Program-made: the position numbers and the translations under genes
Part shown: piece by piece, positions 1 through 11,944 of the stretch
Layout: each line of letters opens with the position of its first letter
Position numbering within the stretch: position 1 is the stretch's first letter
Virus record (IMG/VR): IMGVR_UViG_3300049596_001407
Location: 1-22,572 of that record
Direction: 5' to 3' (one strand)
DNA: 22,572 nt
From: a virus
The notes under the pieces: generated by a model
The model's input: only the letters and a program-made list of their open reading frames with translations
Databases searched by the model: none
What the model was told of the DNA's origin: nothing

Positions 1-90
1 GTGTAACTTTTTATTAATTTATATTGATTAGATAAGGAGCAACCTACTTAAGCTTTAATAATCAAGATAAATAATAAAAAACATTTACTA
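1..90. other. Leader upstream of first adhesin gene
   Basis: This A/T-rich stretch has no convincing gene. One plus-strand frame is open from the left edge to a TAG at 29-31, so it could hold the last codons of a gene outside the window, but that cannot be decided here. An AAGGAG string at 34-39 resembles a Shine-Dalgarno sequence but is about 50 bases from the ATG at 91 and has no start codon at a useful distance. The last 25 bases hold the ATAAATA motif described separately. Confidence 0.5.
67..73 (+). promoter_or_regulatory. Candidate late-promoter core ATAAATA
   Basis: ATAAATA lies 17 bases before the ATG of the first adhesin gene, within AAGATAAATAATAAAAAAC. It resembles the T4-type late -10 element (TATAAATA). 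Near-identical strings precede the genes at 2548 and 8808. No -35 element is expected for this promoter class. In DNA this A/T-rich the heptamer also occurs by chance, so the call rests on its repeated position just before transcription units. Confidence 0.4.
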
Positions 91-2526
91 ATGTATAATA
101 CTGGGATAGAAATTCCAAAGGTGTCATTTTCATCATTGGACTATACTGAGATAGAAGGAGGCAGCTATTTTATAGGTTTTGACTTAGATAACTCTGGAAA
201 ACTTTCAAAAATAGACAATGCTGGTAATATCACAGTCATTGAAGGATCTGGCGGCGGTGGTGGTATTGTTGATCTTTTAATAGATATTACGCATGCTGCA
301 TTAGTTACTGCAAAAAATTCCTCTAATTTAATTCCAGGAGTAAGTTATAGAATCACTGACTTTCAAACAATATACGATCAGCCAGATTATAGCGATCAAT
401 ATACTGCAAAACAGTCAGTTGAATTAAAAACTGCAAGTATTGATCCAATCATAGTAAGAGCAGTTAGTGACTCTGAATTAGGACTAGACGCTTTTCAAGA
501 AAGTTACCCATTAGACAAGATAAAATATATCTTGGAATATGAGACTTTATTTTCAGGTACTCCAACAAAGGGTAGAATAATAGAGAGAATTGATGAATGG
601 AATAATAGAACAGACTTTGATCATAGAACTGTTTTATTTAAACGATATTTTAGTCTAACTGGAACAGTATGGCACCAAATAAGACATTCAAGTTATTGGG
701 ATACTTCATTAAATTATCCAGAAAGAGAATACGATATTATAACTAATACACCAGCTCTAGTAGATGGAGTTGAGTCAACTTATTTAAGCTATGTATGCAC
801 TACCGCTGGTACTCGGGATTTCGGCTCAGGTAATATTACAGTAAATGTTGGTGACTGGCTGGTAGTTGACCCATATAATGGAATGAGTTGGGCTCAAGTA
901 GATGGATGGATTGAGATGCCTGTATTTATGACGAATGGCATAAACCCATTCAAACCAAATAATAATTATATTCAGGGAATATATGATGCTAAACAGGTTT
1001 TAAATGATGAGTTTTACGATGTTCCATTTGACATAACAAATATTGTATTTAATGATTTTGAAACATATGATAACACTTTAAATGGTGCGTGTACAAATGT
1101 TACTTTTTTTGGTACAACTTATGAGAATGATATATCTGCATACCTACTAAACGTAACTATTGGAGATAGATCAGAGTATGGGGAATTCTGTATTGGGAAT
1201 AAAATATCGTATCGGCTTAAGAATATTACAATTAGTGGAGTATTTACAGGAAATATATTATCTCAAATGGTGCAGGTTAATTTAGATGGGGATTTTAGAA
1301 ATAATAATGGAGGACTTGTATATTCAATATTAGGCCGAGGCAATATTGAACATAATACATTTACCGAAATGTCTGATATACAAGGAGTATTTAGCCAAGT
1401 TTATTTAGGTGAATTTAGAATATATTATAATAAGTTTAATATTATTAGTGAAATAACTTTTAATAATATAAGTAATCTTCAAACTATTATTGGCTGTAAT
1501 ATATTAAAGTTTCAATATTGCGATTTCCAAGAAACTGGGACTCTATATTATTGTAATTTTACACAGTTTCTTGGAAATGACGTATATTCAACTATGAGTT
1601 TTTGTAAAGGAATAGATAATTCAGGTAATAAATTTTATGGAAGAGTATCATCAGTTGATTTTGGTCCATATTTTCGTGAGTGTCAAGTTGGACCAAACTT
1701 TGGTGATACTGGAATAGAAAAATCTTTTCCAGTTAATTATGAAAGTGAATTACCTACGCCAGCGTATTCAAACATTATTCAAGGTTCAATATATGAATGT
1801 GTATTTGGTGCAAATGTTACTGGAAATGTATTTGAAGGAGAGATACGAAAATGTGAATTCCCTTCATTTTTTAAAAATAATCATGTTAAGAATCTACCAA
1901 CTGGCGCGCCGTTTGTAACATTGGTGATTGAAGGTATTCCAGAACTAACTAGTTCAACTGCTACTCAAATTACTACAAGAAAAATTAATCTTACTCAACA
2001 AATATTAGATGACAATAATATTACTGATGTGATATTTCAAGATGTGGATGAAAATGGAGATGATCGATATTGGTTTAGGCATATTAGCTCTTCAAATTTT
2101 AACGAATTACCATTTATGACAAAGTCAACAACTTTGGCTGGAGCAACAGGTACTGCATTAGGTTCAGGTTATTCAAATTCATTAATTATCTCAAAAAAAG
2201 ATGATTATAATAGAGGTGGAGCAATCGGCCAAGTATATTATACAGATGGTACTAATTTTGGTGTACCGTCTCTTGATGAGCTAGTATTAATATATACTAA
2301 TAAAGCTAGTTTAGGGATTCCAAGTGCAGTTGATATTTATTGGTCATCATCTGAAATTAATGCAACAACTGCATATGCAGTAGATTTTTCAGACGGAAGT
2401 ATTTTATCGATTCTTAAAACTGAAAGTCATTCAGTTATTCCAATCTCATATGCTACCTCGTTTAATACTGTGATACTTAAGTATACTGACGAGTATGGAT
2501 CAGAAATTGTTAAATCAATTTTTTAA
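91..2526 (+). CDS. Tail-fibre/adhesin protein with beta-helix body and Lcl-type C-terminus
   Basis: This 811-aa protein is probably a virion receptor-binding fibre or adhesin. Residues 1-50 form a short N-terminal segment, perhaps the attachment region, followed by a glycine linker (GSGGGGG, 52-58). Residues 66-186 are a conserved module with ITDF at 88-91 and FDHRTVLFKRY at 176-186, shared with the next gene. Residues about 310-620 are rich in repeated Asn/Ile/Phe strands such as NNTF and NKF, typical of a right-handed beta-helix. Residues about 704-805 resemble the Lcl/DUF1566 domain (C-type-lectin fold), with PSLDEL near 725 and YWSSSE near 750. The ATG at 91 follows an A-rich leader without a Shine-Dalgarno sequence. 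The gene is followed after 21 bases by its paralogue. The adhesin role is inferred from domain architecture and the tail-gene context; the domain reading is fairly sure. Confidence 0.75.
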   Translation: MYNTGIEIPKVSFSSLDYTEIEGGSYFIGFDLDNSGKLSKIDNAGNITVIEGSGGGGGIVDLLIDITHAALVTAKNSSNLIPGVSYRITDFQTIYDQPDYSDQYTAKQSVELKTASIDPIIVRAVSDSELGLDAFQESYPLDKIKYILEYETLFSGTPTKGRIIERIDEWNNRTDFDHRTVLFKRYFSLTGTVWHQIRHSSYWDTSLNYPEREYDIITNTPALVDGVESTYLSYVCTTAGTRDFGSGNITVNVGDWLVVDPYNGMSWAQVDGWIEMPVFMTNGINPFKPNNNYIQGIYDAKQVLNDEFYDVPFDITNIVFNDFETYDNTLNGACTNVTFFGTTYENDISAYLLNVTIGDRSEYGEFCIGNKISYRLKNITISGVFTGNILSQMVQVNLDGDFRNNNGGLVYSILGRGNIEHNTFTEMSDIQGVFSQVYLGEFRIYYNKFNIISEITFNNISNLQTIIGCNILKFQYCDFQETGTLYYCNFTQFLGNDVYSTMSFCKGIDNSGNKFYGRVSSVDFGPYFRECQVGPNFGDTGIEKSFPVNYESELPTPAYSNIIQGSIYECVFGANVTGNVFEGEIRKCEFPSFFKNNHVKNLPTGAPFVTLVIEGIPELTSSTATQITTRKINLTQQILDDNNITDVIFQDVDENGDDRYWFRHISSSNFNELPFMTKSTTLAGATGTALGSGYSNSLIISKKDDYNRGGAIGQVYYTDGTNFGVPSLDELVLIYTNKASLGIPSAVDIYWSSSEINATTAYAVDFSDGSILSILKTESHSVIPISYATSFNTVILKYTDEYGSEIVKSIF
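286..648 (+). repeat. Paralogous module copy 1 (ITDF...FDHRTVLFKRY)
   Basis: This segment encodes residues 66-186 of the first adhesin and is the best conserved part between the two adhesin genes. Exact nucleotide identity with the second copy includes 17 bases at 355-371 (matching 2782-2798) and 18 bases at 625-642 (matching 3058-3075). It indicates an ancestral tandem duplication and could support recombination between the two genes. Confidence 0.75.
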
Positions 2527-2527
2527 A

Positions 2528-2534
2528 ATAAATA
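2528..2534 (+). promoter_or_regulatory. Candidate late-promoter core ATAAATA before second adhesin
   Basis: ATAAATA occupies most of the first half of the 21-base gap between the two adhesin genes and ends 13 bases before the ATG at 2548. The setting AAATAAATAATTAAAA matches those before 91 and 8808. It could give the second adhesin its own transcript, or simply be the A-rich initiation region used instead of a Shine-Dalgarno sequence. Confidence 0.35.
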
Positions 2535-2547
2535 ATTAAAATTTATT

Positions 2548-4719
2548 ATGTCAATTAATAGCGCATCATTTCAAATAGTAAAAGTCACAACATATAATGA
2601 TATTCCGGAAAACTTTCCTGAGCACGTATGTTATTACACACAAGATACAGGTAAATATTATATTTGGAAAAACTCTTTACTTCAAGAAGTATTCACAGGA
2701 CTTGTCCAAAGTATAACTCATGCTGAACTAGTTGATTTAAAAACGACTAATACTCTTCTTCCAGGTGCAAAATATCTTATTACTGACTTTCAAACAATTT
2801 ATGATCAACCTGATTTTGATGCAAACGGTAATGAAAAAGCAGCAATTGATATAACCGTAAAAACTTCAGGTGTTGAGAGAATTGTTGTTCAGGCAATAGA
2901 TGAATCTACTCTTTTAACACGAGCAGAATCTTTGGATTTCCCAGAAGATACAATTGACTATATTTTGGAATTTACTACTCCAGTTACAGGAACAGTTACT
3001 AAAGGAAAGATTATAAAACGTATTGATGAAAGAGCGAATGAAACAGATTTTGACCACAGAACTGTTTTATTTAAAAGATATGAAGATTTAACGTATAATT
3101 ATGGAGAGTTTTTCCAGTGTTTTGATAATGGTGGAGCTTATCAGGAATTTTTATGTATTCAGCCTGATCAATTTACATATAGCAATAGAATAGGCCTGAC
3201 TGAATCACAATACCAATTTGATTTACCAAATTTTGTGTTGGGTATTTTTGGACCAGGCGATGATTGTTATAATAATGAATTTTTATCTGCACCAATTAAT
3301 ACAACAGTTGCTTCGTATACTAGGAATAATAAAATAGATAATTTAGCAAATTGTACTTTTTCTATGCTTAATACAAATGTTATAAATAGTGCAAGTAATT
3401 GTTTTATGTATTTAAACAGTGGATTTGGAGGTAATACTATAGGAAATGCACTGAATGTTACTATGCCAGGTGGGGTGATGATCAATTGTAGAATTATGGA
3501 TTTAATTAATGTTACAGTAGCTGGACCGGTAAACATACTGGATTCTAATATAACTGCTTTTAGGCAAGTCACATCAATTGCTCCGGTAGATATTGTTTCA
3601 TGTAATTTTAATATTTTTTCTAATATTACTATGAATGACCAATGTCAGTTTCAGTATAATAATATTAATCATTTTAACGGAAATACTTTTAATAAGGCGA
3701 CTTTAAGAAATAATCTTATTTTTAGGGAATGTGAGTTTACTGACGTAGATGGTTGTACTTTTTACGGAGACTTTATCTATAATAAAGGAAAAAGCATTTC
3801 GGCATCAACTTTTAAGGGACACACAGTAAACAATATTCTTACTTTAGTTGATAGGTCAGAATTTGGAACTGGATTCGGCGATATAAATAGTACTACTAAT
3901 TTTAACGGAAGTATTAGTAATTCTCTACTAGGACTAGTTGATGATTGCACATTTGGTTCAAATTGTATTGGAAATATAATTAGTTCAAATATGTACGCTT
4001 GCACGTTTGGAGATTATTTAATGAATAATGAATTCCAAGATATTGGTGATACGCCTGTTAATAAAACAACCGGTCCTCTATTTGAGAGACAGTTTTCAAA
4101 GGTATTTTTTAAACCTTCAATTGATACTACTATATACTCACTAGGAGATGCTTTACCTCTAGGTGAAACCTATCCAAACTATTTTTTCTATAGATCAGAA
4201 ATAATTAATGGGACAACTTATAATTTTTTCGCTAAAAGAAGTGGAGAATTAGCGATTTGGCAAAATCCATTACCTCTAATTCCGCCTAACACTCAGCCTA
4301 CATATAATCAATTAAATACGGTCGATGGTTTAAATAATAGTATGGACAATACTCGAAAACTGAGAAGCGATTTAATTGCTCCTTTTAATGGACAATTGAG
4401 TTTAGGTGTATTGTTAAATTTTGACTTACGAGTTGAGCCAATCGGACTTATTGGATATTATCCTACTCTAGCTGAATTAGAAGTGATTTATACTAACTTG
4501 ACTGCAATGGGTATGGTTATTACTGGAAAAATTTGGTCATCGACTGAATATGATGCAGATACTGCATATGCACTAGATTTTGATACTGGAGTATGGTCAG
4601 CTGAGCCTAAGGATTCACAGCTGGGAGTTGTTTACATTTATGAAAAACGATGCAACTATGATCTTAAGATAAAATATGATGATTTTAGTGGATCTGAAGT
4701 AATAGAGGATTTTGTATAA
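2548..4719 (+). CDS. Second tail-fibre/adhesin protein, paralogue of the preceding gene
   Basis: This 723-aa protein is a tandem paralogue of the 811-aa adhesin. Residues 1-50 differ from the neighbour's N-terminus and contain YYTQDTGKYYIWKN, a pattern seen in phage structural proteins. Residues 56-178 repeat the shared module (ITDF at 78-81, FDHRTVLFKRY at 168-178). Residues about 240-500 are a beta-helix-like region with many Asn, Cys and Phe positions (FNGNTF, DDCTFGSNC). The C-terminus, about 630-715, is Lcl/DUF1566-like, with PTLAELEVIYTN and IWSSTEYDADTAYALDF near 662. The divergent N-termini with matching bodies suggest two fibres attached at different sites, or sequentially, on the same virion. 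Binding specificity cannot be read from sequence. The gene ends 18 bases before the opposing minus-strand gene. Confidence 0.72.
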   Translation: MSINSASFQIVKVTTYNDIPENFPEHVCYYTQDTGKYYIWKNSLLQEVFTGLVQSITHAELVDLKTTNTLLPGAKYLITDFQTIYDQPDFDANGNEKAAIDITVKTSGVERIVVQAIDESTLLTRAESLDFPEDTIDYILEFTTPVTGTVTKGKIIKRIDERANETDFDHRTVLFKRYEDLTYNYGEFFQCFDNGGAYQEFLCIQPDQFTYSNRIGLTESQYQFDLPNFVLGIFGPGDDCYNNEFLSAPINTTVASYTRNNKIDNLANCTFSMLNTNVINSASNCFMYLNSGFGGNTIGNALNVTMPGGVMINCRIMDLINVTVAGPVNILDSNITAFRQVTSIAPVDIVSCNFNIFSNITMNDQCQFQYNNINHFNGNTFNKATLRNNLIFRECEFTDVDGCTFYGDFIYNKGKSISASTFKGHTVNNILTLVDRSEFGTGFGDINSTTNFNGSISNSLLGLVDDCTFGSNCIGNIISSNMYACTFGDYLMNNEFQDIGDTPVNKTTGPLFERQFSKVFFKPSIDTTIYSLGDALPLGETYPNYFFYRSEIINGTTYNFFAKRSGELAIWQNPLPLIPPNTQPTYNQLNTVDGLNNSMDNTRKLRSDLIAPFNGQLSLGVLLNFDLRVEPIGLIGYYPTLAELEVIYTNLTAMGMVITGKIWSSTEYDADTAYALDFDTGVWSAEPKDSQLGVVYIYEKRCNYDLKIKYDDFSGSEVIEDFV
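2713..3081 (+). repeat. Paralogous module copy 2 (ITDF...FDHRTVLFKRY)
   Basis: This segment encodes residues 56-178 of the second adhesin. It is homologous to 286-648, with exact nucleotide matches at 2782-2798 and 3058-3075. The protein match is strong at both ends (YDQPDF and VLFKRY) and looser in the middle, as expected of an old duplication under selection. Confidence 0.75.
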
Positions 4720-4737
4720 TTTATATTAAGATAAATA

Positions 4738-5289
4738 TTAATTAAAATCAAGTTCTACATCAAAGTCAAAATAGGCAAACTTTGCAGTAAATGTTTTAAA
4801 ATCAGGAGTAGATGAACTATATGATAGTTTAAATCCATCTTGCGATTTAAGAATAGGTCTTTTAAAAACAATTGAAGATACTAAATAACCTTCATTATCT
4901 AATAGAGACAATCGCATAGGTGAAAAAGTAGGCTGGTCTCTATTTGAAAAGTCTAGATATTTTAAACTGTTTTCTAAAAATATAAAATAGTTTAAATACG
5001 CATCAGTAAGCTTAAAGGTTATGCTAAATTCTCGAGTAAATAAGTCAACTACTTGTGTTGCATTTTTATAATCTTGTTTCTTACCAAAAAGACGCGTTTG
5101 AACAGTAGGATCCATTTGCCATCCTGGAAAATCAATGGATTGAATAGTTGCTGACATAAACTCATTGATTGTATCATATGGTAAAATCAAGCTTTGATAA
5201 TATTTCTTGTATTTTTCTTTAATTTCCGGTGCAAAGTAATCTGGTGGAAAACTAAAAACAAATCCATTTTGTCGTACGTTAAGTAACAT
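4738..5289 (-). CDS. gp19-like tail-tube-fold protein
   Basis: This 183-aa protein resembles the T4 gp19 tail-tube family, in length (gp19 is about 163 aa) and in pattern. It has a central FPGWQMDP segment, then a segment around VVDLFTREFSITFKLTD and a C-terminal run KTFTAKFAYFDFDVELDF that parallels the final strand of gp19. The fold forms stacked hexameric rings lining the tail, and the same fold is reused in baseplate tube initiators. This copy could therefore be the tube, a tube-initiating ring or a baseplate paralogue. Its ATG lies 3 bases after the stop of the cupin-like gene (TAA GAT ATG), so the two are probably cotranscribed. It is the last gene of its cluster and faces the adhesin gene across 18 bases. 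Confidence 0.55.
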   Translation of the reverse strand: MLLNVRQNGFVFSFPPDYFAPEIKEKYKKYYQSLILPYDTINEFMSATIQSIDFPGWQMDPTVQTRLFGKKQDYKNATQVVDLFTREFSITFKLTDAYLNYFIFLENSLKYLDFSNRDQPTFSPMRLSLLDNEGYLVSSIVFKRPILKSQDGFKLSYSSSTPDFKTFTAKFAYFDFDVELDFN

Positions 5290-5292
5290 ATC

Positions 5293-5556
5293 TTATTTTA
5301 ATTTTTTAACTATTTTTAGTTTTAATGCATAGGTACCTTTAATTAATCTATGCCATTGTCCACGATCAATGAATACAGCAGTATTTAATTCACGAGGTAA
5401 TTCATTTTCAAGCTGTATCTTCCAATCAGTTTTTTCAATAGCGATTATCATTCTATCTTCATTATCCATATGCCATTGTAATTCAATAGGATTAATCGAC
5501 TCATCGAAAGTACGAATTGTACAATCATCAGATATGTCAAGATCTCGATAAATCAC
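5293..5556 (-). CDS. Small cupin-like protein
   Basis: This is a predicted 87-aa protein. I start it at the GTG at 5556, where GTGA overlaps the TGA of the upstream gene by three bases. A longer frame from a TTG at 5586 would overlap that gene by 34 bases and add ten residues with no obvious role. Visible features are LQWHMDNEDRM, then WKIQLENELP, then RGQWHRLIKGT and a hydrophobic LKLKIVKKL end. The two His-containing motifs separated by short strands suggest a small beta-barrel of cupin type, as found in many marine T4-like phages, although the full metal-binding set is not evident. Its role is unknown, and its position between virion genes suggests a late function. Confidence 0.6.
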   Translation of the reverse strand: MIYRDLDISDDCTIRTFDESINPIELQWHMDNEDRMIIAIEKTDWKIQLENELPRELNTAVFIDRGQWHRLIKGTYALKLKIVKKLK

Positions 5557-6128
5557 CAGAATCCAGGATAAGTTTTTCCACCCCAAAGGTGAGCATATCT
5601 ATTAATTCGACAAGCCCAATACCCAGCAGTAGTTCGATCTTTTTTATCAGCGCAATTATGCCTAGCAGCAAATGATTTTCTAGCTTTAGGATCACTTACT
5701 TTTGCAGTTAATCCACCATGAACATCGCCAAATGCAATTTTCATAACTCTTCCTGTTTTAGGATTCTTAACGTATACTTGATATTTCTTCTTTTTACCAC
5801 CACGCTGAGGATAGTTTAATTTAACATTATCCTCCTCATTAATACTGAGATTCTCTAATGGAAGGTCCAATGGAACGGGGTGTCCCCTAAAGCTAGCAGT
5901 TAAACCTAAATCAGTAAATTCAAATAGCTGCCTATCAGGTAGTCCCAGTTCCAGAGATCCTTCAAAGAATAATTCTCGAGCTTCGCAAAGAAGAGTAATA
6001 TGTGCATTTGAGCCAGGTCTAAATACTGACTCGATAATACTATTATCGTTATTAATATGATACTTTAAATTTTCAGAAATTTTTTCAGTACCTATAAATT
6101 GACTAAAACTTTTTATTCGTGTTTCCAT
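5553..6128 (-). CDS. Conserved phage protein with KNPKTG and C-terminal HNC/WAC motif
   Basis: This 191-aa protein has two parts. Residues 1-105 are mixed and include a FRPGSNAH motif near 37. A basic stretch (RGGKKKK) then leads into a compact C-terminal module: VYVKNPKTGRVMKIAFGD, then DPKARKSFAARHNC, then TTAGYWACR, ending in YPGFW. Small proteins with this C-terminal pattern recur in marine and other large tailed phages, but I cannot name a proven function. The spaced Cys residues with nearby His could bind a metal, and the many Lys/Arg residues could bind nucleic acid; both are inference. The ATG at 6128 lies 9 bases after the preceding stop, in AATAAATAATTAAT. Its TGA is the only non-TAA stop in the window. 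Confidence 0.6.
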   Translation of the reverse strand: METRIKSFSQFIGTEKISENLKYHINNDNSIIESVFRPGSNAHITLLCEARELFFEGSLELGLPDRQLFEFTDLGLTASFRGHPVPLDLPLENLSINEEDNVKLNYPQRGGKKKKYQVYVKNPKTGRVMKIAFGDVHGGLTAKVSDPKARKSFAARHNCADKKDRTTAGYWACRINRYAHLWGGKTYPGFW

Positions 6129-6137
6129 ATTAATTAT

Positions 6138-6923
6138 TTATTCGCCTGGTGAATAATTTTCATCAATCCACTTATCTGAAATAGGCGCGTTATCTGGGCC
6201 ACTTGATTCACGAAGATTAAATTTCCTAATCATATTTCCTTTATATCTAGTTGAATGGTCATCAAAACTAGGAAAATACGTCTCCATATTTAGGTCAAGA
6301 GCAATACTTACTGTATTTGAATCAGTATAGGTAAAATTATATGATTTTGTAAATTGAGCAGAATCTGGAAAGGTTACTTGTGCTGGAATCCTTAATCCTC
6401 TAAATTGAAAATATCTTACTTGATTCTTGTAATAAAAATCAAAGATCTTTTCCATTATTTTAAAAGTCTTATTAATATTATCGCTCTCTATTTTAACATT
6501 AAATGTTAATGCCATTGGTAAAGTAAAGAGTCTTGCTGAAAATGCTTTTAATACTTTTTGATCATTTTCATCAAGCATTTCCTGATTAAAACTTCCCCTA
6601 ACAAATTTATTAGTATTATCACTAGGTTTAATTGCAAAGGACGATAGTGTTACTATTCCACGAGGCATTTTTTCATAATTTCCTTCTGCATGATTTGGAT
6701 ATTTACAGTCAGTTGGAAGTTCAATAAAGAAATCTTTCATAAACCCTTCATCTCCACCAAAATTATAGAAGAATGGAATTTCATGGTTTTCTATTTTTCC
6801 ATCTCGAATTAATTGAATAATTACTTCTCGATTTAATAAATCAAGTAGAGAAAGGGTAGCATTTCTTAAGAAAATATCTTGGACATTTTCATTTCTAATA
6901 TTTTCATTATTTGTAACTTGCAT
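6138..6923 (-). CDS. gp15-like tail terminator/completion protein
   Basis: This 261-aa protein parallels T4 gp15, the tail-sheath stabiliser and completion protein (272 aa). It shows an N-terminal LIRDGKIENHEIPFFYNF resembling the gp15 segment with a charged residue run then VPITY; a central MPRGIVTLSSFAIKP; LPMALTFNVKIES followed by a helix (KIMEKIFDFYYKN); and a final strand VSIALDLNMETYFPSFDD resembling the gp15 end LTFEVNGWMYPP. I chose the ATG at 6923, four bases after the upstream stop. The longer frame from 6980 would overlap the upstream gene by 53 bases and adds 19 residues that look like its shadow. The assignment rests on motif spacing without an alignment; a gp3-like or other neck protein is the main alternative. 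Confidence 0.5.
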   Translation of the reverse strand: MQVTNNENIRNENVQDIFLRNATLSLLDLLNREVIIQLIRDGKIENHEIPFFYNFGGDEGFMKDFFIELPTDCKYPNHAEGNYEKMPRGIVTLSSFAIKPSDNTNKFVRGSFNQEMLDENDQKVLKAFSARLFTLPMALTFNVKIESDNINKTFKIMEKIFDFYYKNQVRYFQFRGLRIPAQVTFPDSAQFTKSYNFTYTDSNTVSIALDLNMETYFPSFDDHSTRYKGNMIRKFNLRESSGPDNAPISDKWIDENYSPGE

Positions 6924-6927
6924 AATA

Positions 6928-8712
6928 TTATCTATTTTTAGCGATGTATGGTAGATTAGATTGAGGTCTACAATTATCAATTAGGACAATCATAGATTCA
7001 TCTTTTAAAAACTGTTGACTTAGGATAAAATCATGTTCCTCTTCCCTAAGCATAGTATTAAATATACGAATATTAGTTATTAGGAGTTTTGAATTAAGTA
7101 ATTGATAATTTTCAGTAAGATCAAATGATTCTTGGGTAAACGAAGAGATATTTGATAGAACTCTAATAAATCCATTATGATTTATAATATCACTAGGATC
7201 CTCCTTAATTGAATATACATAGGCTCCACTTTGTTTAAATTCATTAGATGCTGAAATTACAAGAGCATGCCAAGTAGAACTTACAAAATTATTAATTACA
7301 TAATTTTTAATTTGAGAATTTATCTTTACTGTAATAGTCAAGTCTCCATTTGGTAAAGAGGAACTATATCTTGCAAATACTGCACTAATTTGAATACCCG
7401 ATTGAGTTGAGTCACTATATCCATCAATAAAATTAATAGCAGTTGAAATAGATGGCACATTAAATAAGCAGGTAAATGAAAGATTTTTAGAATCAGTCAT
7501 ATTAAACCTAGGTAAAGAATTATAGATAATTGCAGGTTCACTATTTACTTGTGAAATATTCCCAAGATCATAATAATTTTCAATTAGCGGTGCATAATTA
7601 AAAGTATATTTTAGAGGACGTTGCGTAATATCTGGATGAATTGCTTTTCTGGAAGAGTCAAAAGTTGTTGTAATCTTATTATATTGAGCTGGCATTGTTG
7701 AATCTTTAATATCTTTTTCAACTTCTTCACTAAATAGCTGATCTGCACTTAAGATAACATTATCTAAGAAACTCCTAGAGTCATCGGTTAAGAGCATATC
7801 AATATTTGGATTGTATTTTTTAAGTTGAATCTTCCAAAAAGTAGGAGCCATCATAAATCCTTTATTTAGATATGATCCCTGAATCTCAAACATTCTGTTT
7901 AATAATGGAAAATAGAGAAAGTCTCTTTTTCTAGGTTCAGAGTTTGATCCAAAAATAGATTGAAAATATTTATGGTCTACCTCTATTTCAAAAGGTAATT
8001 GAAAGTCTATTCCAAATTCAGTATATTTTGGAGTATTTTCAGGAAAGGCATTATCTTTTACCATTACTTTTATACACTTACGATCAATATTCTTATAGAG
8101 GGTCCACTCTTTAAATACATAATCACCACTATTTGAATCTGGTAAAGTTCTAAAATAGACTACTTGATGTCCATATAGTTGATTTGTAAAAAAGGAAAGT
8201 TCTTGATACATTCCAATAGCACTGTCCACATTATATGGTCTAAAACTAGGATTAGCATTTTGAACAATCGAAGTACACTTTTCATCACTACATACTAATT
8301 TAGGAGAATAAGTATTTGCAACTGATTCAACCTGTTTAAATCTAAGCTTAACTTCATTAATTATAATAGGGGTTGAAAGTTCATCACTAGTACCATCATC
8401 ATATTCATACTTAACTTCAAAGTAGAAGCCATCGCAGTCATCTAAAAAGATATTTGCAGCATCTCCTAAATTTCCAGGAGAAACTTGATACCATAATGAC
8501 CAATCTAATCTGTTTCTAGAATACCTAAAACTTCGAGTTAGCTTAGTTAAATCTAGAGTATTTGGAGAGTCTATTACTAGATCTTCAACGAAATCTGTAA
8601 ATTCAGTTATCTTGCATATTGGATCGACTGTTGAAAATATTCTAAAATTTTTAGAAAAAGTTAAAGAATTATTTTGAGGATCGATTAATAGTTTGACAGT
8701 TGTTTTAACCAT
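6928..8712 (-). CDS. Tail/baseplate structural protein with LamG-like C-terminus
   Basis: This 594-aa protein is the first gene of the 4738-8712 cluster. The N-terminal half is beta-rich, with an immunoglobulin- or Fn3-like strand set around residues 95-130 (FYFEVKYEYDDGT). The sequence VCSDEKC near 138 could hold a Cys pair. Residues about 230-320 (FEIEVDHKYF, RDFLYFPLLNRMFEI) look like a baseplate-type beta domain. Residues about 405-585 resemble a laminin-G/concanavalin-like jelly roll: NLSFTCLFNV, SSTWHALVISAS and a closing LLITNIRIFNTMLREEEHD. LamG domains in phage tails often contact glycans. I cannot assign a T4 equivalent, so only a structural role is claimed. Its upstream intergenic region carries two promoter-like motifs. 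Confidence 0.55.
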   Translation of the reverse strand: MVKTTVKLLIDPQNNSLTFSKNFRIFSTVDPICKITEFTDFVEDLVIDSPNTLDLTKLTRSFRYSRNRLDWSLWYQVSPGNLGDAANIFLDDCDGFYFEVKYEYDDGTSDELSTPIIINEVKLRFKQVESVANTYSPKLVCSDEKCTSIVQNANPSFRPYNVDSAIGMYQELSFFTNQLYGHQVVYFRTLPDSNSGDYVFKEWTLYKNIDRKCIKVMVKDNAFPENTPKYTEFGIDFQLPFEIEVDHKYFQSIFGSNSEPRKRDFLYFPLLNRMFEIQGSYLNKGFMMAPTFWKIQLKKYNPNIDMLLTDDSRSFLDNVILSADQLFSEEVEKDIKDSTMPAQYNKITTTFDSSRKAIHPDITQRPLKYTFNYAPLIENYYDLGNISQVNSEPAIIYNSLPRFNMTDSKNLSFTCLFNVPSISTAINFIDGYSDSTQSGIQISAVFARYSSSLPNGDLTITVKINSQIKNYVINNFVSSTWHALVISASNEFKQSGAYVYSIKEDPSDIINHNGFIRVLSNISSFTQESFDLTENYQLLNSKLLITNIRIFNTMLREEEHDFILSQQFLKDESMIVLIDNCRPQSNLPYIAKNR

Positions 8713-8807: not shown

Positions 8808-9608
8808 TTGAAAAAGAAACCGATACTTGACCCACTGTGGATAACTAAAGGGTCTTACTTAGACCCAGAATATTTCAATTACGTGTTGCTTGCAGCTAGC
8901 CAAAAATATAGAGTTGATTTTGAAGAAGGACAATTAGATTATTTTTATGAAATATTTTTTCATAGTTTAAACTTAAATAATTTGGCAATTGATGGCCGAC
9001 TTTTTGATTTTAAATTACACCCTATTTTTAAGAGTGAGCGTATTCATAAAATTACAACAGATCTTAAGCAGATTTATACAAAAAAGGAGGAAGTTGTTGA
9101 GATATTTAGAAATGCAAATTATGTATTCCTAAATATTATTATGGAATACATGGAAGTTCAAATGGATGTTTTAGAAAAAATTGAATTTTTCTATTTAAAT
9201 GAGATGATTCACGAACAATCTGAAATATTCTTGGTAATTAATAGATTAGGAAATAAGAAATATAATATTTGGAAGATATCATCTGACTTAAATCGAGATT
9301 TTGGGTATTCTTTTAAAAAGATTAAATCGATTACTATAAAAGAAATAAAGGAGAACGCCCTTAGGGAAGAACTAGATAAGTTAGACGACCCTGAATTAGA
9401 AAACATGATAGAATCTAAAAACGTTTTATTCACGGTCTTAGATGGGCCCTCTGAAAAGATCTCTGCAAATATTATTAAAGACATTATTCTTTTAAATAAG
9501 GGTGTTGCAAAAGGCATGAATTTCGAACCGTCAATAATAGAAGAATTTTATGGACTTCTTATGTCGGAGAGATTAATGCCTTTTACACTTAATCAGTGGA
9601 TAGATTAA
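8808..9608 (+). CDS. Protein of unknown function, TTG start
   Basis: This 266-aa protein is the only plus-strand gene inside a long minus-strand structural block. I do not recognise it. It is acidic and mostly helical, with a distinctive N-terminus (KKKPILDPLWITKGSYLD, then PEYFNYVLLAASQKY). The middle is helical and hydrophobic (NIIMEYMEVQMDVLEKIEF). A Lys/Glu-rich segment (KIKSITIKEIKENALREELDKLDD) and a C-terminal SERLMPFTLNQWID follow. There is no signal peptide and no clear membrane segment. The start is TTG: the frame has no upstream ATG, and the A-rich leader places the codon sensibly after the promoter-like motif. The codon bias matches its neighbours. Its stop overlaps the opposing gene's stop on a shared TTAA. 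A chaperone, assembly factor or minor structural protein is possible but unproven. Confidence 0.65.
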   Translation: MKKKPILDPLWITKGSYLDPEYFNYVLLAASQKYRVDFEEGQLDYFYEIFFHSLNLNNLAIDGRLFDFKLHPIFKSERIHKITTDLKQIYTKKEEVVEIFRNANYVFLNIIMEYMEVQMDVLEKIEFFYLNEMIHEQSEIFLVINRLGNKKYNIWKISSDLNRDFGYSFKKIKSITIKEIKENALREELDKLDDPELENMIESKNVLFTVLDGPSEKISANIIKDIILLNKGVAKGMNFEPSIIEEFYGLLMSERLMPFTLNQWID

Positions 9609-11944
9609 AGTTTAATGATGTATATTAATGCATAGAATGGTGGTAAGTTATTAACTGGAGCAGTTGCGCCAGTTTGACCATTTACTGTACCCCATGTTAA
9701 TTGTGGGTTTCCATCTTTATTTCGTATACCATTTCCAGTAGTTCCTCTAAAATTATCTTTAGGGTGAGTATGTAAAGCATAATCAACTATTGATTTACCA
9801 AAATATTCACTTTCATGCACAACACCGCCATCACCGCTATTTGGATTAACTCCTCTACGATCACCAGATCCGCTTTCGGGTGCGATTAACAATGGATGAC
9901 GGTGAGAACCAGACGATGTAATACTAACATCGGCACCATTAACTTCAGGGGTTGCTGGATCATCATACATTTCGTGACTATGCGCAGGTATTTGCGCTTG
10001 GGCTAGATAATTTTCACGTTTACCACCACTAGTATTAAGATTATATATTCCACCATCTGCATGTGCTCCAGCGTTTGATTGTTGATAATAAGTGGATGCG
10101 CCTATAATAAAAGCACCTCTAAGATCCGGAACATTATTTGCACCAATAACTGTTGCTAAGGTCGTGTTATTTATGTTTTGACCATTACACTCAAGCCAGC
10201 CGGCAGGAGCAGCGGATCCTGCATAGGCCACTATTGAGCCAGTCGGGACTCCTACTTGTGAAAAGGGAGCCCATGAAGCTTTTCCATAAGCATCTGACTG
10301 CATAACTGCTCCATCCTGCTGATGAGTATCAACCATTCGAATACTTCCGACCACATGGAGAGCAGCTGTCGGATCGTCAATATTAATACCTACCCCTTGC
10401 CATGTGACTGAAAGTGTAGACTGGGGTGAATTGGCGATGTTGACTTTAACTGCAGGTAGGGTAACAAAATCAGCAAGTGGTTGTTTAATATGAAAATTAG
10501 CAGTTGGGGTATCTAGGCCAATCCCGACTCTACCGCTATTTTTTATTACAAATGGGGTTGAATCAATACTTGCCTCATCTTCTACTAAAAAAGAATCGTC
10601 AGTTGTTGCAGTATTAGTAATATGTACTTTTGCAGATGGTGTGCTTGTTCCAATTCCTACTTTACCTTCAATGATTGCACCATCAGTAGGAGCTGCAACT
10701 GATTTGTAACCATCTCCAATTGAAGCATTTCCAGCAACGGTTAAGTAAGAAGTAGGATCAATATCGCCTATTGATAGTTTACCAATAACATTAGTATCTC
10801 CTATAATATAAGTTTTATCATTTAGTAAAATTCCATCAATACCTGAACTATTGTCTAACATAGCCAGTGAAGTAGTACTTAATCTAGAATAACTACTTAC
10901 GTAATTAATAGCTAAACCAAGAGTTGATGCAATATTCTCTTGTCTTAATGCAAAAGTAATTCCGTCTGCCACTACATGATTAACATTATATGTGTTTTGT
11001 TCAACGACAGCTTCCCATGGACCAATAAATGTATTTAATTCATCTTTGATAATACTACCTAAATTTTGCCTATTCAATTTAGGTGTAACAAAATCAAATA
11101 ACCCATTTTGATCAACTAATGGACTATTAAAATCTTCAGGAAGAGAAAGAGAAAACTTTGCAGTATTTACCCAATTATTATTATTAGTTGGACTTAACTG
11201 TGGAGAAGCAATGTAATCTTTATAAAAATTTATTTTTAGATTATGCTTAACGTCACTTAGTTTATTTATCGAAGTTCCATCATTATATAATGAACCAAGC
11301 TCTATATGATATCTTCCATGCTCTGCCGCTAGCGACGATTGACCATCTGCGTGATTTGCAAAAATACTAGTTAATGAATTATATAAAATTTTTGGATCTG
11401 CTGGAAAATCAATAGATGGAGATGTTTCATCAAAATTATGTAAAAATAATTGATTATTTGATGAAGCATTTAAAGTACCTCTAATTTGATCCATTCCTCC
11501 ATTTCTTTGACTAAATGCAATAAATCGAGTATCTATATGAGCAGGATCTTTACCTAGGGTTTTAACAAATGGAGAACCATTTATTGCTAAATAATTATTG
11601 ATAATTGTAGATATCCCAACTTCTAATGTCCAAGTAGAAGTAGCTGAGTCCCAACTCCATACATCAAAATTAACATTATCTAGATAGAGATCACCATCTA
11701 ATAATCCGGTAAAGGTATGTGTAGTTGGAGTATTTGAATCGACCCACCAAGTAGTTCCTCTAATTCCTTGAGGGCCATCTAATCCAATTGGACCAGCTGG
11801 GCCCTGAGGTCCAGTTGAACCAATTGGTCCAGGAGTACCTACTCCAAGTTCAAGAAGTTTATTGAAATTGAAATTTACTTTTTCAACGTTTATCTCTTGA
11901 GGATCTGACGGAAAAATCTCTTTTAAGTTTATTCTAATTGGCAT
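9605..11944 (-). CDS. gp12-like short tail fibre with collagen repeat, VGIGT repeats and collar tip
   Basis: This 779-aa protein is probably a trimeric receptor-binding tail fibre. Residues 1-35 form an attachment segment (NLKEIFPSDP, KVNFNFNKLLELG). Residues 36-63 are nine Gly-X-Y triplets, a collagen-like trimerisation stalk. A long beta-rich shaft follows, then four related repeats near 388, 427, 471 and 517 (GKLSIG, GKVGIGTSTPSAKVHI, GRVGIGLDTPTANFHI, GVGINIDDPTAALHV). Residues 564-620 match the phage tail-collar domain (PTGSIVAYAG, APAGWLECNGQ, VPDLRGAFI). The tip holds three HxH motifs (655-657, 681-683, 725-727), the type used by T4 gp12 for metal binding, and ends PPFYALIYIIKL. The ATG lies one base after the upstream stop. 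The family assignment is strong; the receptor is unknown. Confidence 0.85.
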   Translation of the reverse strand: MPIRINLKEIFPSDPQEINVEKVNFNFNKLLELGVGTPGPIGSTGPQGPAGPIGLDGPQGIRGTTWWVDSNTPTTHTFTGLLDGDLYLDNVNFDVWSWDSATSTWTLEVGISTIINNYLAINGSPFVKTLGKDPAHIDTRFIAFSQRNGGMDQIRGTLNASSNNQLFLHNFDETSPSIDFPADPKILYNSLTSIFANHADGQSSLAAEHGRYHIELGSLYNDGTSINKLSDVKHNLKINFYKDYIASPQLSPTNNNNWVNTAKFSLSLPEDFNSPLVDQNGLFDFVTPKLNRQNLGSIIKDELNTFIGPWEAVVEQNTYNVNHVVADGITFALRQENIASTLGLAINYVSSYSRLSTTSLAMLDNSSGIDGILLNDKTYIIGDTNVIGKLSIGDIDPTSYLTVAGNASIGDGYKSVAAPTDGAIIEGKVGIGTSTPSAKVHITNTATTDDSFLVEDEASIDSTPFVIKNSGRVGIGLDTPTANFHIKQPLADFVTLPAVKVNIANSPQSTLSVTWQGVGINIDDPTAALHVVGSIRMVDTHQQDGAVMQSDAYGKASWAPFSQVGVPTGSIVAYAGSAAPAGWLECNGQNINNTTLATVIGANNVPDLRGAFIIGASTYYQQSNAGAHADGGIYNLNTSGGKRENYLAQAQIPAHSHEMYDDPATPEVNGADVSITSSGSHRHPLLIAPESGSGDRRGVNPNSGDGGVVHESEYFGKSIVDYALHTHPKDNFRGTTGNGIRNKDGNPQLTWGTVNGQTGATAPVNNLPPFYALIYIIKL

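Follow-up and report, generated by a model that had tools for sequence, protein, structure and literature searches.

The window analysed here, a virus record of 22,572 bases, contains two adjacent genes, A and B, which lie head to tail on the + strand with a 21-bp gap between them. Gene A (91..2526), the first of the array, encodes 811 amino acids in four parts, all on the + strand: an N-terminal unit of 54 residues, here termed alpha (91..252), a module of 121 residues that is shared with B (286..648; 'ITHAxLV...ITDFQTIYDQPD...LFKRY', profile match E 2e-66), an A-lineage body (649..2265) with a beta-helix predicted at residues 317-600 (about 1039-1890), and an Lcl_C-like C-terminal tip (2266..2523), which is assigned by profile and modelled at low confidence. 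Gene B (2548..4719) encodes 723 amino acids on the same strand and consists of a 55-residue N-terminal unit, here termed beta (2548..2712), a module of 123 residues (2713..3081, profile match E 1e-59), a B-lineage body (3082..4461) with a beta-helix predicted at about residues 240-500, and an Lcl_C-like tip (4462..4716).

BLASTP of A against B aligns the modules (residues 62-190 of A with 52-182 of B) at 52% identity (E 5e-36; 52-54% overall), the C-terminal segments at 37% (E 1e-9; about 36% for the tips) and the beta-helix segments at 25% (E 2e-7; about 25% for the bodies). Over the N-terminal 54-55 residues the two proteins score z 0-1 against shuffled sequence, compared with z 27 for A and a true N-terminal relative, and homology between alpha and beta was rejected by profile comparison as well (probability 0.3%). 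An earlier reading made from the sequence only had proposed a shared module at 286-648 and 2713-3081, unrelated first 50-60 residues and strongly diverged beta-helix regions. The profile boundaries fall exactly at those positions, and the values above bear out the other two proposals.

AlphaFold models of A and B are confident in the modules and beta-helices, poor at the N-termini, and poor in the tip of A and in part of the tip of B. Both models contain the right-handed parallel beta-helix body of tailspike and fibre proteins. In VIA-align the helices match phage tailspikes and depolymerases at Z 16-17, and the models match P22, HK620, CBA120 TSP3, Sf6 and others at Z 14-17 over 250-300 residues, so that the beta-helix-like body ascribed to both genes is well founded. 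A Foldseek search of the PDB with the whole models gave no match under E 0.001, and the domains are visible only through VIA-align and single-domain matches. No counterpart of the module was found among solved structures.

The C-terminal tips are recognisable as Lcl-like by more sensitive comparisons. Four of the six paralogues (A, B and the four array genes of the nearest relative described below) match Pfam Lcl_C (PF07603), all under the cut-off, and the gathering score was not reached (15.8 bits against 34.9). A profile of the six sequences, in contrast, picks out 8q4e, the C-terminal domain of Lcl, at E 6e-6, and Foldseek aligns the tip of B with part of the same domain: 62 of 131 residues superpose at 2.1 A, with 27% identity and a probability of 1.00. 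The Lcl/DUF1566-like end that had been suggested for both genes is thus borne out, by profile and, for B, also by fold. The tip of B also matches Bd2740 weakly in Foldseek (E 1.8, probability 0.72).

The fold of the body raises the possibility that A and B are depolymerases, with beta-helices acting as glycan lyases or hydrolases, since the best structural matches include the K1 capsule lyase, PL6 alginate lyases and CBA120 TSP3. A common fold alone, however, shows no activity. In the six-gene alignment the invariant positions of the body are Asn, Gly and hydrophobic structural residues, and the sole invariant acidic residue, Asp314 of A, sits at the helix cap with none within the helix, although tailspike active sites vary and the lineages could differ in theirs. 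The structural nature of the invariant residues weakly favours binding over catalysis, and on the predicted models we regard enzymatic bodies as unlikely.

Apart from the array, the window is a tail/neck block according to Pfam and PHROG searches, and it also encodes very large structural proteins. Bases 3..17 (+) encode the end of the preceding gene (VTFY and a stop codon), whose C-terminal peptide is identical to that of a gene in the nearest relative (full copy 207 aa, L004:326-949) and whose spacer DNA can be aligned; gene A therefore opens the array, which the window contains in full. Viral searches with the 207-aa preceding gene and with full-length B returned zero new relatives. On the other side the slot is closed by a conserved gene of the structural block, encoding 183 aa (4738..5289, -; 90% identity in L004). 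Most relatives have one more gene, of about 155 aa (HPxQYKAPxGSxRDKKLDKA...AHQWAMARVNSA), directly ahead of this boundary gene; it is absent from the window (4738-5586, -) and from L004. In some wider relatives (L060:5377-7714, L062, L063, L066, L067) the fibre cassette is separated from the boundary gene by a small block that the window lacks, including genes of 294-296, 211 and 271 aa, one of which begins FFQSSLPRAGSTLLQN, as a sulfotransferase does.

Pfam and PHROG searches further identify a gp15-like sheath stabiliser (6138-6980, -; 85% identity in L004) and a neck/Hc2 protein (6928-8712). The sheath-stabiliser frame as listed begins at a TTG within the neck gene; most homologues align from residue 19-20, which puts the probable true start near 6923. 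A 266-aa gene (8808-9608, +) separates the neck gene from the next fibre gene and stands alone there on the opposite strand in nearly all relatives (38-76% identity); it has no clear family match in Pfam or PHROG. A Collar match (PF07484, E 1.4e-10) confirms the gp12-like fibre that had been noted at 9605..11944 (-) as a third candidate receptor binder. Relatives mostly match it only over the N-terminal 294-465 aa; beyond that the sequence varies, as does the overall length (779-1412 aa), which makes this collar-type fibre itself a second variable receptor-binding candidate.

The position of the slot beside the sheath stabiliser and Hc2 counts in favour of A and B being receptor-binding fibres. 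Its proximity to neck genes would also suit fibres of the head or neck that hold the phage to mucus or polysaccharide and do not decide host range, and the first array protein of a crAss-like phage (L080) has a weak match to a head-decoration family (phrog_2647, E 0.003). Nevertheless, the beta-helix matches are mostly to tailspikes and depolymerases, the PHROG matches of A are tail proteins (phrog_13892, phrog_31460), and the module-bearing gp99 of phage PAU follows the sheath gene in a cluster of tail genes. We therefore consider a head or neck location quite unlikely.

Several features bear on the nature of the phage and its host. A window protein of 1835 aa resembles proteins of an uncultured 462-kb phage, of Prevotella Lak megaphages, of Tenacibaculum and Chryseobacterium phages and of PAU, and A-rich sequence lacking a Shine-Dalgarno motif stands upstream of the start codons. 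A-rich leaders of this kind, together with proteins like those of Bacteroidota phages, fit a Bacteroidota host. Judged by these sequence features, this jumbo T4-like phage probably infects Bacteroidota.

The only close relative found is a 14.4-kb contig (L004/L069), which shares the slot and both bounding genes but holds four genes in it (p799, p804, p740 and p791), compared with two in the window. Since the end of the preceding gene and the spacer DNA align, the slot is fully seen in both phages. The copies are 30-50% identical, which is far too divergent for assembly collapse to be a likely cause of the difference. The copy number accordingly varies among relatives, as far as the comparison of these two phages goes, and a strictly conserved pair was not seen.

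The six genes of the two phages fall into different groups depending on the domain considered. By N-terminus, A and p799 carry alpha while B, p804, p740 and p791 carry beta, with 45-69% identity within each type (z 14-27) and none between them. By module, body and tip, in contrast, A groups with p804 and p791, and B with p740 and p799. All four combinations therefore occur: alpha with the A-lineage body (A), alpha with the B-lineage body (p799), beta with the A-lineage body (p804, p791) and beta with the B-lineage body (B, p740). Third codon positions of B and p740 are identical at 73% across the N-terminus but at 48% across the module (Fisher p 0.003, with no correction for the six comparisons made), a drop of the kind predicted by recombination at or near the junction.

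The module tree separates the A lineage from all other modules (support 100) and places B with p740 and p799 (support 91), implying that the two lineages had already diverged before the phages separated. A recent duplication giving rise to A and B can thus be rejected, and with it the suggestion that one gene is a recent spare copy.

We also compared how quickly the domains diverge. Between A and p804 the body is 41% identical and the tip 67%, so the beta-helix body is the fastest-changing part and the tip is more conserved. This is the opposite of the extra variation in the C-terminal domain that the sequence-only reading had led one to look for. The dN/dS values are 0.06-0.17 for backbone genes of the two phages and, for A and p804, 0.16 in the module, 0.43 in the body and about 0.14 in the tip, with synonymous sites near saturation, which leaves the test for selection little power. 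Within that limit no sign of positive selection was seen, dN/dS being below 1 in all domains, and evolution under host pressure finds no direct sign in these values or in tips that are less diverged than the bodies.

The same comparison bears on whether the tips are targets of a diversity-generating retroelement (DGR), variable sequences rewritten by a reverse transcriptase. The Lcl_C-like tips do resemble the C-type lectin fold of such targets as Mtd (PMC10769870). However, they are not hypervariable, and a reverse transcriptase (PF00078) was found in none of 20 related records of up to 436 kb in which the controls were positive, the window and several of the relatives being fragments. We rejected this explanation as very improbable.

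The alpha unit occurs on 17 viral loci, all or nearly all in one clade of jumbo T4-like phages. The bodies behind it are unrelated, comprising YadA-like repeats, a second repeat type, collagen-like GTSGTSG or TGPTG repeats and beta-helices, and they often occupy the same slot: a single alpha gene adjoins the boundary protein in L084, L085 and L088, while two alpha genes and other fibres fill the slot in L060/L082 and L062. A constant front with a changing body is what is expected of a virion anchor, and alpha is probably one. On a 207-kb contig (L086/L089), three alpha-headed fibre genes are found at two sites about 120 kb apart in one genome.

The beta unit has a different distribution. It is present on five genes, namely B, three of L004 and one of L080, the sole contig with beta beyond the window and L004, and it never heads the first gene of an array. 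In L080 it heads the second module gene, the first having a long unrelated N-terminus followed by the module and an Lcl-type tip. The terminase (TerL) of L080 matches only crAss-like phages and their uncultured kin, implying that beta moves between different virion types. The two L080 modules are sisters (support 98 in the module tree), so the duplication there was independent, and the array meets the contig edge and may be longer. Among the loci surveyed, beta was found only in arrays and always with an Lcl tip, and Lcl tips only in beta-containing arrays.

From these patterns beta is probably a second anchor or a docking unit. Its presence in a crAss-like phage fits poorly with a lineage-specific virion socket and suggests that it may bind a partner encoded in the same cassette. 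The proposal of different attachment points for A and B therefore holds in part: alpha resembles a virion anchor, but beta is common to phages of different virion type.

A docking role for beta invites comparison with the Ackermannviridae, in which adjacent beta-helix spikes form a cluster where one has an N-terminal virion anchor and the others dock on it; TSP1-3 dock on TSP4, and the conserved N-termini are thought to permit exchange (PMC11414711, PMC8825819). CBA120 TSP1-4 and the genes studied here are alike in being adjacent beta-helix binders beside neck or baseplate genes with one distinct, 5'-most N-terminal anchor. The anchor gene TSP4 (orf213) is 5'-most in its cluster, beside Hc2 and a baseplate wedge gene (PMC8825819), and all three beta-containing arrays likewise begin with a gene without beta and continue with genes that all carry it. 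By analogy, the array may work as a branched complex. Its first gene, headed by alpha or, in the crAss-like phage, by another long N-terminus, would then encode the fibre seated on the virion, and the beta fibres would dock on that fibre. The restriction of beta to arrays with Lcl tips would agree with such an arrangement, as would its occurrence in both jumbo T4-like and crAss-like phages, where the docking partner may travel with the cassette.

On the other hand, random order would place a gene without beta first in all three arrays at about 1/16, so the order is a lead and not proof. A and B differ from CBA120 TSP1-4 in lacking detectable gp10-like XD domains (no XD2/XD3 match in Pfam) and in that all members carry the 120-residue module and the Lcl tip. 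Profile comparisons led us to reject homology between the module and the N-terminus of TSP4 (residues 1-335; probability 1%) and between beta and that of TSP3 (about 1% or less). Moreover, the N-termini ahead of the module span only 55-113 residues in the jumbo phages, and the sole domain of A that B lacks is the 54-residue alpha. We hold the branched complex to be a tentative possibility on the unlikely side. Its extended form, in which the array is a self-contained receptor-binding tree with an anchor-bearing root and a variable number of beta fibres, docked through an undescribed 55-residue unit that moves between jumbo contractile and crAss-like short-tailed phages, likewise seems unlikely; if true, fibres could be added without a change of the baseplate.

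To place the array among related fibres, a broad module profile was run against viral contigs, giving 173 matching stretches, of which 80 were kept, representing 79 distinct loci. A single module gene is present at 75 loci, two at 2, three at 1 and four at 1, the multi-copy loci including L004 and L080. The single-copy fibres, found in aquatic viral contigs (e.g. L006, L014 and L016), have the same module followed by GNxFxxNxIG beta-helix repeats, but their tips are not Lcl-like, unlike those of A and B. Tandem module fibres also occur in L013:5448-12759 (three genes) and L009:7881-12800 (two genes), all with one conserved N-terminus (MKPNNFPxRPSL...EELYTQT), so that only the window, L004 and L080 show the mixed-anchor pattern. 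No relative of the module was found in bacterial or archaeal genome contigs scanned by exact short patterns, which miss distant relatives. Among annotated phages, full-length A had no match and the module was present only in PAU.

Taken together, we consider it likely that A and B are receptor-binding fibres from a variable cassette whose anchors can be exchanged, carried by a jumbo T4-like phage with a probable Bacteroidota host. The receptor-binding role advanced by the sequence-only reading thus stands in respect of the tailspike-type beta-helix, the Lcl/C-type-lectin-like tip and the exchangeable N-termini, though not of the ideas of a spare copy or of host pressure. As trimeric proteins of the tail-fibre or tailspike type, A and B would attach through the exchangeable N-terminal unit, alpha or beta, with the common 120-residue module as adaptor and the right-handed beta-helix as shaft, and the C-type-lectin-like Lcl tip would bind a surface glycan or protein. 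The cassette would change in two ways: whole copies would be gained or lost, and recombination at the junction of N-terminus and module would join a conserved anchor to a different receptor-binding part. A broad or switchable host range, as had been proposed for this phage, is a plausible effect.

Such an arrangement would mean that host-recognition fibres in uncultured, probably Bacteroidota-infecting phages change as whole cassettes, in which copies are gained or lost and a conserved 54-residue front is reused ahead of widely differing bodies. The beta unit, sitting on the non-first array genes of jumbo T4-like and crAss-like phages, offers a testable candidate for a portable fibre-docking unit. 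Most receptor binders in viral contigs lack annotation, and profiles of alpha and beta can serve to detect them.

Three further systems share single parts with A and B. Legionella Lcl is a trimeric adhesin that binds glycosaminoglycans (PMC11162425); the tip of B is like its C-terminal domain in fold and profile, whereas the body of Lcl is collagen and that of the phage proteins a beta-helix, and A and B stay below the Pfam gathering score. Bd2740 of the Bdellovibrio MAT fibres is a trimeric C-type lectin related to the phage adhesin Mtd (PMC10769870). These fibres and Bordetella phage Mtd resemble A and B in being chimeric, with a beta-structured shaft and a trimeric tip like a C-type lectin (PMC10769870), but the structural match is weak, as described above, and no S74 or DGR features were found in A and B. 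Gp99 of Sphingomonas phage PAU is encoded in a cluster of tail genes and contains the module at 37-38% identity; it is most probably the best viral structure match (1048 aa, E 1.3e-7); the literature search found no virion proteomics for PAU. Unlike A and B, gp99 is a single-copy protein of 1048 aa with other N- and C-terminal parts. Compared with these systems and with the Ackermannviridae spikes, the array belongs to a type of host-recognition cassette that is already known, but its multi-copy form is unusual.
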